From Lactococcus sp. S-13 (GTDB lineage Bacteria; Bacillota; Bacilli; Lactobacillales; Streptococcaceae), in contig NZ_SDAK01000001.1 of the NCBI RefSeq assembly GCF_004210295.1, forward strand, positions 1,984,001-2,048,000: a stretch of 64,000 bases of DNA, given 5' to 3'. The first letter of the stretch is position 1, and each line of letters starts with the position of its first letter. Of this stretch, positions 41,872-46,409 are shown one piece after another. The position numbers and the translations under genes were made by a program. The notes beneath the pieces are model-generated. The model had not been told where the DNA came from and searched no databases. It worked only from the letters and a program-made list of their open reading frames with translations.

Positions 41872-42684
41872 TTAAAATTTCCAGTCTTTAATCACTTTCA
41901 CACCAGTAATTTTCTCGGCTTTGACAGGAGAAGATTGCTCGCCAGAAGTTGTGTTTGCTTTGACTTCACCAGAAGCAATCTTATCCACAACATCCATACC
42001 AGAAATAACTTGGCCAAAGACGGTGTATGAACCATCAAGACTTGGATAACCACCATTTTTGTAGGCCGCTTCAATCTTGCTTGGACGTAAGAAAGTTGAA
42101 AGTTGGCTGCTCATATCTTGACTGCTTTGAACGATGAAAAACTGTGAACTGCTTGAGTTAGGTTGACCTGTGTTAGCCAGAGATAGCGCACCACGAATGT
42201 TATAAAGCTTGTTAGAGATTTCTGTGGCGAAAGGTTGATTGTCGTTAACGACAGACTTGCTACCTGTTCCTTGATTTGATGGATCACCAGTTTGAATCAT
42301 GAAGTCTTTGATGACGCGGAAAAACTCATTATCTTTGTAGTAATCTTGTTTGGCAAGGGTAAGGAAATTTTCCACAGCTAGCGGAGCCAGTTTTGGAAAG
42401 AGCTTGATGTTGATATTTCCAGCCGTTGTTTGGATTTGGACTTCGGCCTCGTCTGAACCAACTGTGTTGGACAATTGAGGTAAATCAAGCTTGTCAAGAC
42501 TTGCTTGACTGACTTTTTTGCCGTTAATTGCTGTCGGTTCACCAGATTGAGTTGTTGTTTGAGTCGTTTGATTAGTACTATCCGTGGATTTCGGACGATT
42601 AGCAAAGAAAATCAAAAGTCCAACCACAACGACTAAAATCACGCCAAAAAGAGTAAAAAGAATGGGGGTATGTTTCTTATTCAT
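41872..42684 (-). CDS. Membrane-anchored cyclophilin-type peptidyl-prolyl isomerase
   Basis: Catalyses proline isomerisation, probably outside the membrane. The 270 residues have an N-terminal membrane anchor (~9-28, no lipobox Cys), a Ser/Thr/Gln-rich linker, and a cyclophilin domain from ~85 with FFRVIKDFMIQTGDP and SSSQFFIV. The domain lies on the outer side if the anchor is type II. The ATG at 42684 has no Shine-Dalgarno; an extended -10 TGTTAAAAT ends six bases before it, so the mRNA may be leaderless. Confidence 0.92.
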   Translation of the reverse strand: MNKKHTPILFTLFGVILVVVVGLLIFFANRPKSTDSTNQTTQTTTQSGEPTAINGKKVSQASLDKLDLPQLSNTVGSDEAEVQIQTTAGNINIKLFPKLAPLAVENFLTLAKQDYYKDNEFFRVIKDFMIQTGDPSNQGTGSKSVVNDNQPFATEISNKLYNIRGALSLANTGQPNSSSSQFFIVQSSQDMSSQLSTFLRPSKIEAAYKNGGYPSLDGSYTVFGQVISGMDVVDKIASGEVKANTTSGEQSSPVKAEKITGVKVIKDWKF

Positions 42685-42726: not shown

Positions 42727-42755
42727 TTGCATTTTTAAGAAAAAAGATATAAAAT
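42727..42755 (+). promoter_or_regulatory. Promoter of the leader peptide and permease
   Basis: A -35 TTGCAT and a -10 TAAAAT are 17 bases apart. The predicted start is near 42762, just ahead of the leader-peptide ribosome-binding site. Confidence 0.65.
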
Positions 42756-42773
42756 ATAGAAAAATCATGAAAG

Positions 42774-42896
42774 GAGAATCACGAAATGAATAACTTCTCA
42801 TCACGTCATCATCATTTGCATAGATAAGAGTTGTGTCATACTTAAGGTATAGATACAGCTTTGGAGTACGCTCAAGTATCTATGCCGGTGATTCTC
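42774..42896 (+). promoter_or_regulatory. Alternative RNA pairings of the attenuator
   Basis: Three pairings can be read. GAGAATCAC (42774-42782, over the leader ribosome-binding site) pairs with GTGATTCTC (42888-42896). GGTATAGATAC (42846-42856) pairs with GTATCTATGCC (42876-42886). GCATAGATA in the leader codons competes for that same strand. GCCGGT at 42884-42889 can also pair with ACCGGT at 42902-42907, breaking the terminator. Confidence 0.6.
42786..42827 (+). CDS. Histidine-rich leader peptide MNNFSSRHHHLHR
   Basis: A 13-residue reading frame with AAGGAG nine bases before the ATG. Codons 8, 9, 10 and 12 are all CAT (His), 4 of 13. It lies in the leader of a LysP/HisP-type permease and ahead of an intrinsic terminator, the layout of a transcription attenuator. 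The last His codon, AGA and stop (GCATAGATA, 42818-42826) are exactly complementary to 42877-42885, so ribosome position on these codons would change the RNA fold. This is a prediction; no product has been shown. Confidence 0.7.
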   Translation: MNNFSSRHHHLHR

Positions 42897-42897
42897 G

Positions 42898-42933
42898 AAA
42901 GACCGGTTGTAAAGACAGCCGGTCTTTTTATTT
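42898..42933 (+). terminator. Attenuator terminator upstream of the permease
   Basis: AAAGACCGGTTGT / ACAGCCGGTCTTT form a 13-bp stem with one wobble and loop AAAG, followed by TTATTTG. It lies between the leader peptide and the permease gene with no stop of another gene nearby, so it must act as an attenuator. Confidence 0.88.
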
Positions 42934-42993
42934 GTTTGTACTCAATTGCTGAATGAAACTTATGAAGATTTTTTGGATAAAAAGGAGAAAATT

Positions 42994-44427
42994 TTGGAAA
43001 ATCAAAATCAGGTTAGGCGTAACCTTAAACAACGTCACATTACCATGATTGCTTTAGGAGGGACGATTGGGACGGGCTTGTTCTTGACCTCTGGAGCAAC
43101 AATTAGTCAAGCGGGGCCTTGGGGTTCAGTGCTCGCTTATTGTTTTATTGGGATTATGGTGTATTTTGTCATGACTTCCCTTGGGGAAATGGCGACCTAC
43201 CTTCCAACTTCGGGTTCGTTTTCAGATTATGGCGGACGCTATGTTGACCCCGCTTTTGGCTTTGCTTTGGGCTGGAATTACTGGATAAATGGTGCAATTA
43301 CGATTGCCGTTGACTTGACAACAGCTGGATTGATTACGCAGTTCTGGTTTCCACACGTTCCATCTTGGATTTTCTCGGGAATTGCAACCATTTTGATTTT
43401 TGTGATTAACGTGCTTGCCGTAAGTGCTTTTGGTGAAACAGAATATTGGTTGTCAACGATCAAAGTCATTACAATTGTTCTCTTTTTGATTGTTGGTATT
43501 TTGACAATTATCGGCGTTTTGGGACAGGGAAATGTTGATGTGATGGCCAATTTGTCAGCAGGAAATCACGGCTTTGTCGGTGGAATTTCAGGATTTGTCG
43601 GCGTACTCTTAATCGCTGGATTTTCTTTCCAAGGAACAGAGCTTTTGGGAGTTACTGCAGGAGAGTCTGAGGATCCAGGGAAATCTATTCCGAAAGCTAT
43701 GAATTCTATCTTCTGGCGGATTTTGCTCTTTTACATCTTTTCAATTATTGTTATTGCAGCGATTATCAATTTTAAAGACCCACGCCTCCTTAATCCAAAT
43801 TCGACAGCGGTCATGAGTCCTTTCACGATTGTTTTCAAAAATATTGGTTTTGCAGTGGCGGCTTCAGTCATGAATGCGGTCATTCTAACTTCTGTAATTT
43901 CTTCAGCCAACTCAGTGATGTACGCTTCAACACGGATCTTGTACTCTTTAGGACAGGAAAAGGGCGCACCAAGATTCTTTGGACGTACAGCGAAAAATGG
44001 GATTCCATTTTATGCGTTGCTTGCCACAACAATTATTTGTTTCATCGCCTTTTTGACAGGGATTTTCGGAACACAGATTTATCTTTTCTTGGTTGATTTG
44101 TCCTCATTGACTGGTTTCTTAGCTTGGCTGGGGATTTCAGTGAGTCACTTGCGTTTCCGCAGAGCTTATGTTGCCCAAGGGCACGACGTTGCAGACTTAC
44201 CTTATAAAGCGAAATTGTTCCCCTTTGGACCGCTCGTTGCACTTTTGATGACGGCGGCAATTGCAATCAATCTTGATCCAAGAATGCTCTTTAGCTCACA
44301 CTGGGGAGAAGGGCTTGCCATGTATGCGGCAATTCCGATTTTCATTCTCCTTTATTTCGGCTACAAATGGAAATATAATACCAAAATCATTCCATTAGAA
44401 GAAGTTGATTTGAGTCGAGAAAAATAA
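42994..44427 (+). CDS. Lysine/histidine-type amino acid permease (LysP/HisP-like, APC family)
   Basis: Twelve-segment amino acid transporter. The frame extends to a TTG at 42946, but AAAGGAG lies six bases before the TTG at 42994, giving 477 residues starting MENQNQVRRNLKQRHITM. APC features are ALGGTIGTGLFLTSG at ~25 and GFSFQGTELLGVTAGESEDP near 210. The family includes lactococcal LysP (lysine) and HisP, formerly LysQ (histidine). The His-rich leader peptide argues for histidine. It is monocistronic with its own terminator. Confidence 0.9.
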   Translation: MENQNQVRRNLKQRHITMIALGGTIGTGLFLTSGATISQAGPWGSVLAYCFIGIMVYFVMTSLGEMATYLPTSGSFSDYGGRYVDPAFGFALGWNYWINGAITIAVDLTTAGLITQFWFPHVPSWIFSGIATILIFVINVLAVSAFGETEYWLSTIKVITIVLFLIVGILTIIGVLGQGNVDVMANLSAGNHGFVGGISGFVGVLLIAGFSFQGTELLGVTAGESEDPGKSIPKAMNSIFWRILLFYIFSIIVIAAIINFKDPRLLNPNSTAVMSPFTIVFKNIGFAVAASVMNAVILTSVISSANSVMYASTRILYSLGQEKGAPRFFGRTAKNGIPFYALLATTIICFIAFLTGIFGTQIYLFLVDLSSLTGFLAWLGISVSHLRFRRAYVAQGHDVADLPYKAKLFPFGPLVALLMTAAIAINLDPRMLFSSHWGEGLAMYAAIPIFILLYFGYKWKYNTKIIPLEEVDLSREK

Positions 44428-44577: not shown

Positions 44578-45432
44578 ATGAGATATATCGCCATTGTCGG
44601 TACTAATGCAAGTTTTTCTTATAATCGAAAATTGCTTTGGTATATGAAAAAACACTTTGAGCCCCAAGCACAAATTGAAGTGGTGGAAATTGCCGATCTT
44701 CCTCTTTTTTGTGAGGATTTTGAGCAAATTCCAACGCGGATTTTGGAGATTGTTCGGGCAATTGAAGCTGCGGATGGGGTGATATTTTCAACGCCTGAGT
44801 ATGATCATGCAATTACGGCAAGTTTGAAATCGTTGATTGAGTGGTTATCTTGGAAGACTTTGCAGCCTTTGGTCAATATGCCCGTGATGATTGTGGGGGT
44901 TTCTTTGGGAAATATGGGAACTGTTTTTGCTCAGGAAAATCTGCGACAAATTTTGAGTTCACCAGGTTTGGATGCTTTTGTTTTGCCGACCCACCAATTT
45001 TTATTGGGGCGTGCGGTGACGGCTTTTAATGCTCAGGATGAATTGGTGGATGAGCGAACTATTGAGTGGTTGGAGCAATGTTTTGAGCAGTTTATGCGCT
45101 ATGCGAAGACGCTAAAACCACTGCGGGAATCGGCTAGTCGTAGCTTAGTTTCAAAAGATGAGCCTCAAAATATAGAACGCTGGAATCAAGGGACGCCTCT
45201 GGGTCTAGCGGTTGCTTCGGATGCGGATACAGGAGCTTCGGAAAGTGAAGCAAGAGATGAAGGCGTCAAGTCGGTCTACGATCAACTTTTTGAAGGGGCG
45301 GACATCTGGGCATTTGAGGAACTTGATCGGCGCTTGGAGAGAGAAGAAAAAGGTCGGTCGGCGGCTCAATCAGTGGGTGAAGAAGAGACTGAGGAACAAG
45401 CGGACGGGCTAAGAGAGGATTTGCCACAATGA
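44578..45432 (+). CDS. NAD(P)H-dependent FMN reductase with a possible flavinylation motif
   Basis: Cytoplasmic flavodoxin-like FMN reductase. Residues ~1-180 form the FMN_red domain: phosphate-binding GTNASFSYNRKL near residue 8 and the STPEYDHAITASLKS loop near 80. The protein has 284 residues, ~100 more than a minimal FMN_red protein. The extra part contains SDADTGASESE at ~214-224 (codons 45217-45249). This fits the D-x-x-[ST]-G-A-[ST] pattern where ApbE attaches FMN through phosphoester to the Thr; Thr218 would be the acceptor. The tail after it is acidic and helical. The next gene, overlapping by four bases, is apbE. No signal peptide. Confidence 0.85.
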   Translation: MRYIAIVGTNASFSYNRKLLWYMKKHFEPQAQIEVVEIADLPLFCEDFEQIPTRILEIVRAIEAADGVIFSTPEYDHAITASLKSLIEWLSWKTLQPLVNMPVMIVGVSLGNMGTVFAQENLRQILSSPGLDAFVLPTHQFLLGRAVTAFNAQDELVDERTIEWLEQCFEQFMRYAKTLKPLRESASRSLVSKDEPQNIERWNQGTPLGLAVASDADTGASESEARDEGVKSVYDQLFEGADIWAFEELDRRLEREEKGRSAAQSVGEEETEEQADGLREDLPQ

Positions 45433-46409
45433 CAGAGAACTTTACACCACTTGCGAGTTCCAAAATTTCTAAACGTTATCGTGCCTTGGGGACGGTGATT
45501 GATTTGACGGTTTTTGGGACACAAGAGGAGCGCTTTTTGGATATGGCTTTTGATTTGATTAAAGAATATGAAAATATTTTTACGGTCAATCGGGAGGAAT
45601 CAGAGTTGATGAGGGTCAATCATGCAGCGGGAAAAGAGGCCGTTCAGGTTTCAAGTGCTGTGTACGGGTTGACCAAGGTTGCGGTGGAAAAAAGTCAGGA
45701 ATGCTTTGGCTTTAATGCCGCAATCGGCCCTTTGGTGAAATTATGGCACATTGGTTTTGCGGATGCGCAGGTACCTCAGCAAGCGCAGATTGATGAACGC
45801 TTGGCTTTGATTGATCCACAGGATATTGTGTTGAACGATGAGGAATTATCTATTTTTCTGCTTAAAGAAGGGATGGAGCTGGATTTGGGTGGCATTGCCA
45901 AGGGCTATATCGCTGATCGGGTTCAAGATTTGTGGCGGGCATATGGGCTTTCTGCTGGAATTATCAATCTGGGGGGCAATCTCGTTTTGATGGGGGATGC
46001 TCCGCATCAGGTGGATAAAAAATGGCGTGTCGGGATTCGAAATCCGCTGACGAACACAGGAGTTTCTGTGGCTCAACTTGTGACAGGTGCAGCTTCTGTG
46101 GTAACTTCAGGCATTGCGGAGCGGTTTATGGAAGTGGATGGTCAATTTTATCATCATATTATTGATTCTCAAACGGGTTTTCCACATGATAATGACATTG
46201 CAAGTGTGACTGTTTTGTCGAAGAAGTCAGTAGATGGGGAAATTGAAACGACCCGCCTCTTTTTCGCTGCGGAAGAGCTTGAAGATTGGCTTTGTGAGCA
46301 TGAAGAGCTATATGGGGCAATTTTTATCAGCCGCGATAAAAAAATAAAACTGGTAGGAATTACTCCAGAACAGGTGCAAATTATTGATCCAAGCTTTATC
46401 TTGGAATGA
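45429..46409 (+). CDS. apbE: FAD:protein FMN transferase (ApbE)
   Basis: Transfers FMN from FAD to Thr/Ser of target proteins. The 326 residues start at the ATG overlapping the FMN reductase stop (ATGA). Family segments are LDLGGIAKGYIADRVQ (~155), INLGGNLVLMG, ASVVTSGIAERF and HHIIDSQTGFPH (~240). It has no signal peptide or lipobox, so it should act in the cytoplasm, on the same side as the reductase encoded upstream. That reductase is the obvious candidate substrate. Confidence 0.92.
   Translation: MTENFTPLASSKISKRYRALGTVIDLTVFGTQEERFLDMAFDLIKEYENIFTVNREESELMRVNHAAGKEAVQVSSAVYGLTKVAVEKSQECFGFNAAIGPLVKLWHIGFADAQVPQQAQIDERLALIDPQDIVLNDEELSIFLLKEGMELDLGGIAKGYIADRVQDLWRAYGLSAGIINLGGNLVLMGDAPHQVDKKWRVGIRNPLTNTGVSVAQLVTGAASVVTSGIAERFMEVDGQFYHHIIDSQTGFPHDNDIASVTVLSKKSVDGEIETTRLFFAAEELEDWLCEHEELYGAIFISRDKKIKLVGITPEQVQIIDPSFILE

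Follow-up and report, generated by a model that had tools for sequence, protein, structure and literature searches.

Enterobacterial his and trp operons are controlled by attenuation, in which stalling of the ribosome on regulatory codons decides between mutually exclusive hairpins. In Firmicutes, histidine attenuators have been described in the B. cereus group, in Peptostreptococcaceae and Lutispora and in Erysipelotrichales (PMC9413887), as well as for hisS paralogues in bacilli (PMC2965389). Lactococcus carries a T-box before its his operon and, in the available text of the same survey, is not among the genera with one before the hisYZX transporter (PMC9413887). A further RNA, the trpB motif (RF04312), has more than 900 representatives, with Fusobacteria named among its carriers. 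Its 2024 publication presents it as an orphan riboswitch candidate, and the authors, who speculate on a riboswitch, do not exclude a classic attenuator (PMC11109978).

We analysed a 64,000-nucleotide window of the Lactococcus sp. S-13 chromosome (genome G000, G000:C1:1984001-2048000; positions given alone below count from the first letter of this window). It contains an element which, with a probability of roughly 0.9, is a ribosome-stalling (leader-peptide) transcription attenuator that would read the histidine supply ahead of a LysP/HisP-type permease gene.

The histidine leader and its conservation in Lactococcus

The leader sits between a divergent gene (41872-42684, minus strand), which we take to encode a peptidyl-prolyl isomerase-like protein, and the permease gene (42994-44427, plus strand; TTG start, 477 amino acids), the candidate regulated gene; the two genes after it (44578-46409) presumably encode an FMN reductase-like protein and an ApbE-type flavin transferase-like protein. 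All parts of the element lie on the plus strand. The promoter proposed in the initial annotation (42727-42755) is present as a sequence (TTGCAT at 42727-42732, 17 nt, TAAAAT at 42750-42755) and all 18 relatives keep CTTGCA 5' of their leader, but the promoter matches the consensus weakly and is absent from the list of a consensus scanner, and thus stays a candidate. A Shine-Dalgarno sequence (AAAGGAG, 42770-42776), which the 18 aligned loci share with little or no change, precedes a 13-codon open reading frame, MNNFSSRHHHLHR* (42786-42827; ATG at 42786, stop TAA at 42825-42827; the asterisk marks the stop), whose four CAT codons (three in a row at 42807-42815 and one at 42819-42821) are the putative sensing codons. 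An intrinsic terminator follows at 42898-42930, with a 13-bp stem (42898-42910/42915-42927) and a U-run; in a second scan it had 14 pairs, by one more G-T, and such sites occurred at 0.1 per shuffle. The AAGGAG, the frame with its four CAT codons, the 13-bp terminator and the permease gene of the initial annotation were all recovered, and every sequence element listed there matches the letters of the window at its position.

Six strands can pair in alternative ways. Strand s0 (GAGAATCAC, 42774-42782) overlaps the leader ribosome-binding site and has s5 (GTGATTCTC, 42888-42896) as partner. Strand s1 (GCATAGATA, 42818-42826) spans the end of the leader frame and reaches into the stop codon; it is similar to s3 and a possible partner of s4. 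Strand s2 (42827-42842) is predicted to take s3 as its partner during a ribosome stall farther upstream, and s3 (GGTATAGATACAGCTTT, 42846-42862, containing GGTATAGATAC at 42846-42856) can alternatively pair with s4 (GTATCTATGCC, 42876-42886), from which it is separated by a small hairpin, GAG-UACG-CUC (42864-42873). The competition of two upstream strands for 42876-42886, noticed initially, has a counterpart in s3 and s1, both of which can pair with s4. The predicted antiterminator hairpin (42884-42907) joins GCCGGT at 42884-42889 to ACCGGT at 42902-42907, and a second GCCGGT copy lies at 42918, so that the threefold arrangement described earlier is there in the sequence. The leader strand folds with z = -5.59, and 0 of 200 shuffles folded as low.

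The CAT run CATCATCAT is common on its own (78 places in the S-13 genome) and alone proves nothing; we used conservation instead. Permease relatives at E up to 1e-100 are found in 17 of the 18 genomes of the genus, the eighteenth, G014, being 71% complete, and together with the L. formosensis locus L044 they give 18 loci for comparison, whose 175-nt leader sequences include 16 distinct ones. In all 18 the leader ends in HHHxHR*, and the frame, the histidine codons and the pairing strands are conserved, by which a chance run of CAT codons was set aside. All 54 HHH codons encode histidine (52 CAT, 2 CAC, no others), with a synonymous change to CAC in two loci. Residue x is L, V, A or H, and the N-terminal half of the peptide differs in length and sequence. 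The element thus has a Shine-Dalgarno-linked frame with a histidine cluster that is conserved as protein, and no orthologue was met among the 18 loci that lacks the leader frame or its histidine codons. The alignment across Lactococcus and Streptococcus proposed initially is borne out for the former genus only: the elements read from the presumed Streptococcus (g10) were of the tryptophan type and gave no histidine leader.

In ten loci (G000, G008, G002, G010, G011, G004, G005, G007, G009 and L044) the leader directly precedes the permease gene, as it does in G015 across a gap about 350 nt longer. In the seven others (G016, G012, G017, G003, G013, G006 and G001), next to a similar divergent neighbour, it heads a longer cluster that encodes an amino acid ABC permease, an ATPase and a binding protein, with the permease last; five of these seven clusters also hold a racemase-like gene, a peptidase-like gene or both. 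Except for the proteins that were scanned, these gene names are our assumption, and we likewise take as DapF-family-like the product of the gene that separates the ABC transporter genes from the permease gene in L046, L050, L052 and L053. The racemase-like proteins of L046 and L053 come nearest to histidine racemase models, at scores far below cut-off, so D-histidine metabolism under control of the histidine leader is possible in the long clusters. In G001 (L053, 9074-10485), the permease orthologue appears to be split into two frames that overlap, 107 and 363 codons long, and may be broken or misread there.

Competing helices and the fold model

We examined covariation in an alignment (A3) of 41 members of the wider family, picked for diversity. 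Helices s2:s3 and s3:s4, which exclude each other by sharing s3, are paired in 93.8% and 93.7% of cells. Seven of the nine pairs of s2:s3 and four of the nine of s3:s4 have changed on both sides. None of five measures was reached by more than 3 of 500 shuffles, and slid versions were less than 52% paired. The stem test suggested in the initial annotation therefore comes out in favour of two mutually exclusive, compensated helices. Helix s1:s4 is paired in 91.8% of cells with weaker covariation, 17 of 500 shuffles reaching this percentage. The proposed pairing of the leader ribosome-binding site with a strand beside the terminator likewise holds: in a separate test s0:s5 was paired in 93.8% of cells with a both-side change in one of nine pairs. 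Within Lactococcus the terminator stem shows such changes in 4 of 13 pairs and s3:s4 in one; the covariation inside the genus is modest, as the 18 leaders are similar.

Which fold goes with stalling had been left unsettled, and constrained folding of the 18 histidine leaders, with the ribosome assumed to cover 15 nt beyond the P-site base and the transcript truncated before the terminator's 3' arm, gives a consistent answer in favour of the antiterminator. In 18 of 18 leaders, the antiterminator core reached 0.95-1.0 for a stall on the first histidine codon and 0.92-1.0 on the second and third, with s2:s3 at 0.89-1.0 for all three positions; a stall on the fourth codon gave mixed values (mean 0.71, range 0.02-0.99). 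With the ribosome at the stop codon, s3:s4 reached 0.68-1.0 and the antiterminator measure had a mean of 0.42 (range 0.12-0.73), in part because two of the four scored pairs (GG:CC) survive when s3:s4 takes GCC; in the window element a 3-bp GGU:ACC remnant is left. With no ribosome on the transcript the antiterminator fell to 0.00-0.03. The model thus favours GCCGGU:ACCGGU on an HHH stall and the terminator path with the ribosome at the stop or absent: the predicted ON state is clear for HHH stalls and the predicted OFF state clear for an untranslated leader, whereas at the stop codon s3:s4 would signal OFF clearly and the antiterminator measure less fully.

The following mechanism would fit these computed folds. 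A ribosome starts the 13-codon leader behind RNA polymerase and, where charged tRNA-His is scarce, would stall on CAT CAT CAT, where it would mask s1 and leave s2 free, so that s2:s3 could form and s4 stay single. The free GCCGGU at the s4 end could then pair with ACCGGU in the 5' arm of the terminator, and transcription would continue into the permease gene. With plentiful histidine, the ribosome would reach the stop and mask s2, s3:s4 would form and consume most of the antiterminator arm, and the terminator would fold. In an untranslated leader, s1 or s3 would hold s4 and s0:s5 would close the rest, making off the default. The leader is probably a short decoy gene, with the importer on when histidine is low. 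The conserved leaders (18 of 18), the compensatory helices and the fold model agree with the initial idea that histidine supply acts through ribosome stalling; stalling, regulation of the permease gene and histidine transport are what we infer. Arginine, conserved at the leader end, was rejected as the sensed residue: the AGA or AGG codon is explained by s1:s4 pairing and several sister elements have other residues at that place.

A generic stall/stop model, which assumes equilibrium, ignores the earlier formation of s2:s3 and omits the antiterminator, was applied to 72 elements of the RF04312 set. The P1 helix formed at the stop in 72 of 72; stalling removed it in 32, and the other 40, mostly of the tryptophan type, did not flip. 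This failure remains a gap in the evidence for a stalling switch across the wider family, above all for the ...RWQSR* subclass.

Relatives of the element and their sensing codons

RF04312 was the sole Rfam family found on the window element (locus L059) at E up to 1. Its score, 40.8 bits, lies below the gathering cut-off of 59, and the homology is detectable in a whole-genome search (E 2.7e-4). Among 11 loci searched at E up to 1, the model matched each element: two trpX leaders scored 66.9 and 64.5 bits, above 59, and the others 38.2-53.0, below it, an OppA-linked tryptophan leader having 41.8. Weak matches of one aromatic element (L085) to MicX and rimP, far below cut-off, were taken as chance. 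At E up to 0.001 the S-13 genome has two places, both short-ORF leaders before amino acid permeases; matches came from 211 of 395 Lactobacillales genomes (59 above cut-off), from 5 of 398 genomes of the phylum, including S-13 itself and another member of the Lactobacillales, and, among 14 named control genomes, from Lactococcus lactis only. The three genomes outside Lactobacillales hold a Phe-rich leader, MNYINNFNLKIQIFFNNHFR, before a sodium-dependent SNF-type transporter gene (L178, G1015:C31:23891-24011), possibly a phenylalanine type, and two frames that look like chance (L179 and L181).

We next read 75 RF04312 places, namely 30 loci and 40 more among the Lactobacillales matches listed (20 in genomes represented there at least twice, 20 in others) and the five phylum-search places, two of which are those of S-13. 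A short ORF was sought as a Shine-Dalgarno-linked frame of 7-40 codons ending -45 to +15 of the motif start, with dinucleotide shuffles as control. Such a frame was found at 75 of 75 places, the chance-like ones of L179 and L181 included, against 22.9% in shuffles, and tryptophan stood within its last eight codons at 67 of 75 against 2.6%, at -6 from the stop in 44, -4 in 18 and -3 in 36. The frame lies upstream of the RF04312 model, which starts downstream of it.

Of 335 Streptococcaceae genomes, 33 had matches (E up to 0.01) to a covariance model, R1, built from the 18 Lactococcus leaders, and many of these matches are not histidine leaders. As a caveat, the histidine set comes from a search whose model had been built on histidine leaders. 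Over 395 genomes of the order R1 matched six, S-13 and five outside the family; all five proved to be tryptophan leaders, so a histidine type outside Streptococcaceae was set aside. A broader model (R2) matched 78 of the 335 Streptococcaceae genomes.

We then cross-tabulated leader codons and downstream genes for 122 elements (73 from RF04312, 31 from R1 and the 18 Lactococcus histidine elements), the gene being called from whichever of nine test proteins gave the best or the nearest tblastn match no more than 3.8 kb away. The 18 histidine elements precede the permease in 11 cases and an ABC permease in 7; six other histidine leaders precede an ABC permease (3), the permease, hisC and a YjeM-type transporter (1 each). 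Among R1 elements, 16 Phe/Tyr(+Trp) leaders stand before APC permeases (14) or TrpX (2) and nine Trp leaders before TrpX (8) or an OppA-like gene (1). The 67 RF04312 Trp leaders precede TrpX (56), TrpB (6) or no match (5), and the four RF04312 Phe/Tyr leaders TrpX (3) or an SNF-type gene (1); the other two gave no match. Four Phe/Tyr-TrpX cases (L141, L145, L076 and L098) are misbinned WQxW leaders, which other F or Y residues had drawn into the Phe/Tyr bin. One more Phe/Tyr leader from RF04312 (L147) precedes a TrpX-type protein that scores 319.3 against the TrpX cut-off of 390, which may reflect a joint drift of leader and protein. Altogether, Trp codons precede trpX, trpB, trpE or trpP, and rarely OppA-like genes.

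WQSWHR*-like leaders lie before the tryptophan-binding protein TrpX (NF041285, 439.0 and 453.4 against 390). At 21 further R2 places, 19 have a Shine-Dalgarno-linked frame (L217 and L218 do not, L218 lying near a contig end), and the genes are 14 TrpX-like, one trpB, three TrpP (PF17099), one trpE (PF04715) and two APC permeases, the latter with leader FYFWQR*; the TrpX-like and APC calls were made by the start of the sequence. The second element of the S-13 genome (L095, G000:C1:1216739-1216824, minus strand), with leader MKTQLFTVFYFWLR (...FYFWLR) before an APC permease, is predicted to be an aromatic amino acid attenuator. Other aromatic leaders before APC permeases end in ...FYFWRR*, ...YYYYRHG* and ...YYYWCR*; in L094 and L096 a small gene lies in between, and for these permeases the ProY, GABA, ThrP and AroP models score about equally, with no NCBIfam cut-off reached. 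Of four HHH or YHHG leaders in genus g6, three precede ABC permeases and one a permease relative. A leader ending in ...NHRHHR* (L073, G014:C43:2494-2582, minus strand) precedes a YjeM-type transporter (NF011775, 576.5 against 400), with an FMN riboswitch (RF00050) close by on the other strand. Trp leaders before OppA-like oligopeptide-binding proteins (L093 and L137, the latter by the start of the sequence) hint that tryptophan may control peptide uptake. A T-box governs trpX in S. suis and is also predicted in S. pneumoniae but not in S. pyogenes (PMC9382623), so that not every trpX uses an attenuator of the trpB-motif type.

The window permease is related to LysP (lysine-specific permease, PDB 9eyd, E 4e-154) and scores 584.4 bits against NF008094, below the cut-off of 735; we take the HisP in the designation to be HisP of L. 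lactis. Histidine as its transported substrate is suggested by the leader codons and by neighbouring genes in relatives. It is helped by the racemase-like genes of the long clusters, nearest to histidine racemases though below cut-off, and by a leader MILLSTLSHHHHLHR* before hisC and then a hisZ-like gene in one Lactococcus (L084, G006:C45:60553-60639, minus strand). This hisC scores 314.6 against 276.55 (TIGR01141) and the hisZ-like gene 232.1 against 271.65. Of the histidine-type targets, hisC is the only one independently tied to histidine; codon and gene agree in our computations for hisC and for the tryptophan leaders. The G006 leader stands before hisC in a genus whose his operons reportedly use a T-box (PMC9413887).

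Since Trp, Phe/Tyr/Trp and His codons, in most cases at positions 3 to 6 ahead of the stop, precede different gene sets, the motif looks like one attenuator family, and we infer that the trpB motif is the 3' half of leader-peptide attenuators with exchangeable sensing codons (Trp, Phe/Tyr, His). It is highly probable that the motif is not a riboswitch but a homologous, mobile attenuator family, found mainly in Lactobacillales, whose scaffold has received other sensing codons (Trp, Tyr, Phe or His) through the exchange of three to four of them, comparable to the change of specifier codons among T-boxes, and has moved before matching transporter and biosynthesis genes, the last leader codons acting as a decoy of the switching strand. 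The kinship with RF04312, the seven longer clusters and the sister elements with other codons go beyond the initial annotation.

Alternative explanations and known systems

A ligand-binding riboswitch, in which the RNA would bind histidine or an amino-acid-related ligand directly and the short ORF would be incidental, is the reading of the motif for which its discoverers saw a strong candidate (PMC11109978), and it would suit this reading that the s1-s5 core is strongly conserved in sequence among the 18 loci. An incidental ORF is hard to reconcile with a Shine-Dalgarno-linked frame at every RF04312 place read, with tryptophan mostly at fixed distances from its stop, with leader codons that agree with the downstream gene and, on one RNA scaffold, are of the His, Trp and Phe/Tyr kinds, or with histidine positions that change synonymously; we regard a riboswitch as very unlikely. 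Slightly less likely again is an arrest peptide, in which the nascent leader and free histidine would stall the ribosome and excess would switch the permease on, much as TnaC stalls the ribosome with free tryptophan (PMC8429421). The conserved C-terminal HHHxHR would fit such a peptide, but s1 pairing explains the HR*, the N-terminal half varies, and different residues in the same register stand before uptake and synthesis genes that would be expected to be induced by low supply.

The attenuator reading was further set against a T-box (RF00230) and an enterobacterial His leader (RF00514). Histidine T-boxes do control the his operon in Lactococcus (PMC9413887), but no Rfam match at gathering score was found in the window, and neither RF00230 nor RF00514 matched the element at gathering score or at E up to 1; we rejected both, and their likelihood is close to nil.

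A leader-peptide attenuator of histidine uptake would be of a kind already known. In the open-access literature searched (preprints and most subscription papers lay outside its scope), we did not find the trpB motif described as a codon-swapping attenuator family, nor such a role in Lactococcus amino acid uptake, nor 'trpB motif' or 'trpX' together with 'leader peptide'; the identification of the orphan motif and the Lactococcus uptake role are new to that literature. The proposal would give a published orphan riboswitch candidate a concrete identity, for which the ribosome and not a ligand is to be sought, and it puts forward a regulator for histidine uptake in Lactococcus. Leader-peptide attenuators would form an exchangeable-codon family in lactic acid bacteria, and the leader codons would predict substrates of unassigned transporters, this permease included.

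The trpB motif shares P1 (s3:s4) and the terminator with the window element, and its model matches this leader and its sisters; PMC11109978 proposes it as a riboswitch candidate and does not use the term 'leader peptide' in its main text, and the window element differs from it by its histidine codons and its sub-gathering score. The ilvB-II motif of Corynebacterium is likewise a comparative-search motif later assigned a leader-peptide (uORF attenuator) mechanism, in another taxon and for other amino acids, a likeness by description (PMC10272879). The his-operon attenuators of Firmicutes have the same short ORF with a run of histidine codons before alternative hairpins (PMC9413887); this likeness is also by description, and the available text of that survey reports none for Lactobacillales and has no 'lysP' or 'hisP'. 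Enterobacterial his and trp attenuation follows the same principle of stalling that decides the hairpin. The window element, which has no Rfam His-leader match, differs from it in strand order, since stalling would allow s2:s3 and free s4 for the antiterminator, in carrying an s3-like strand inside the leader ORF, and in a further strand that would close the leader ribosome-binding site.
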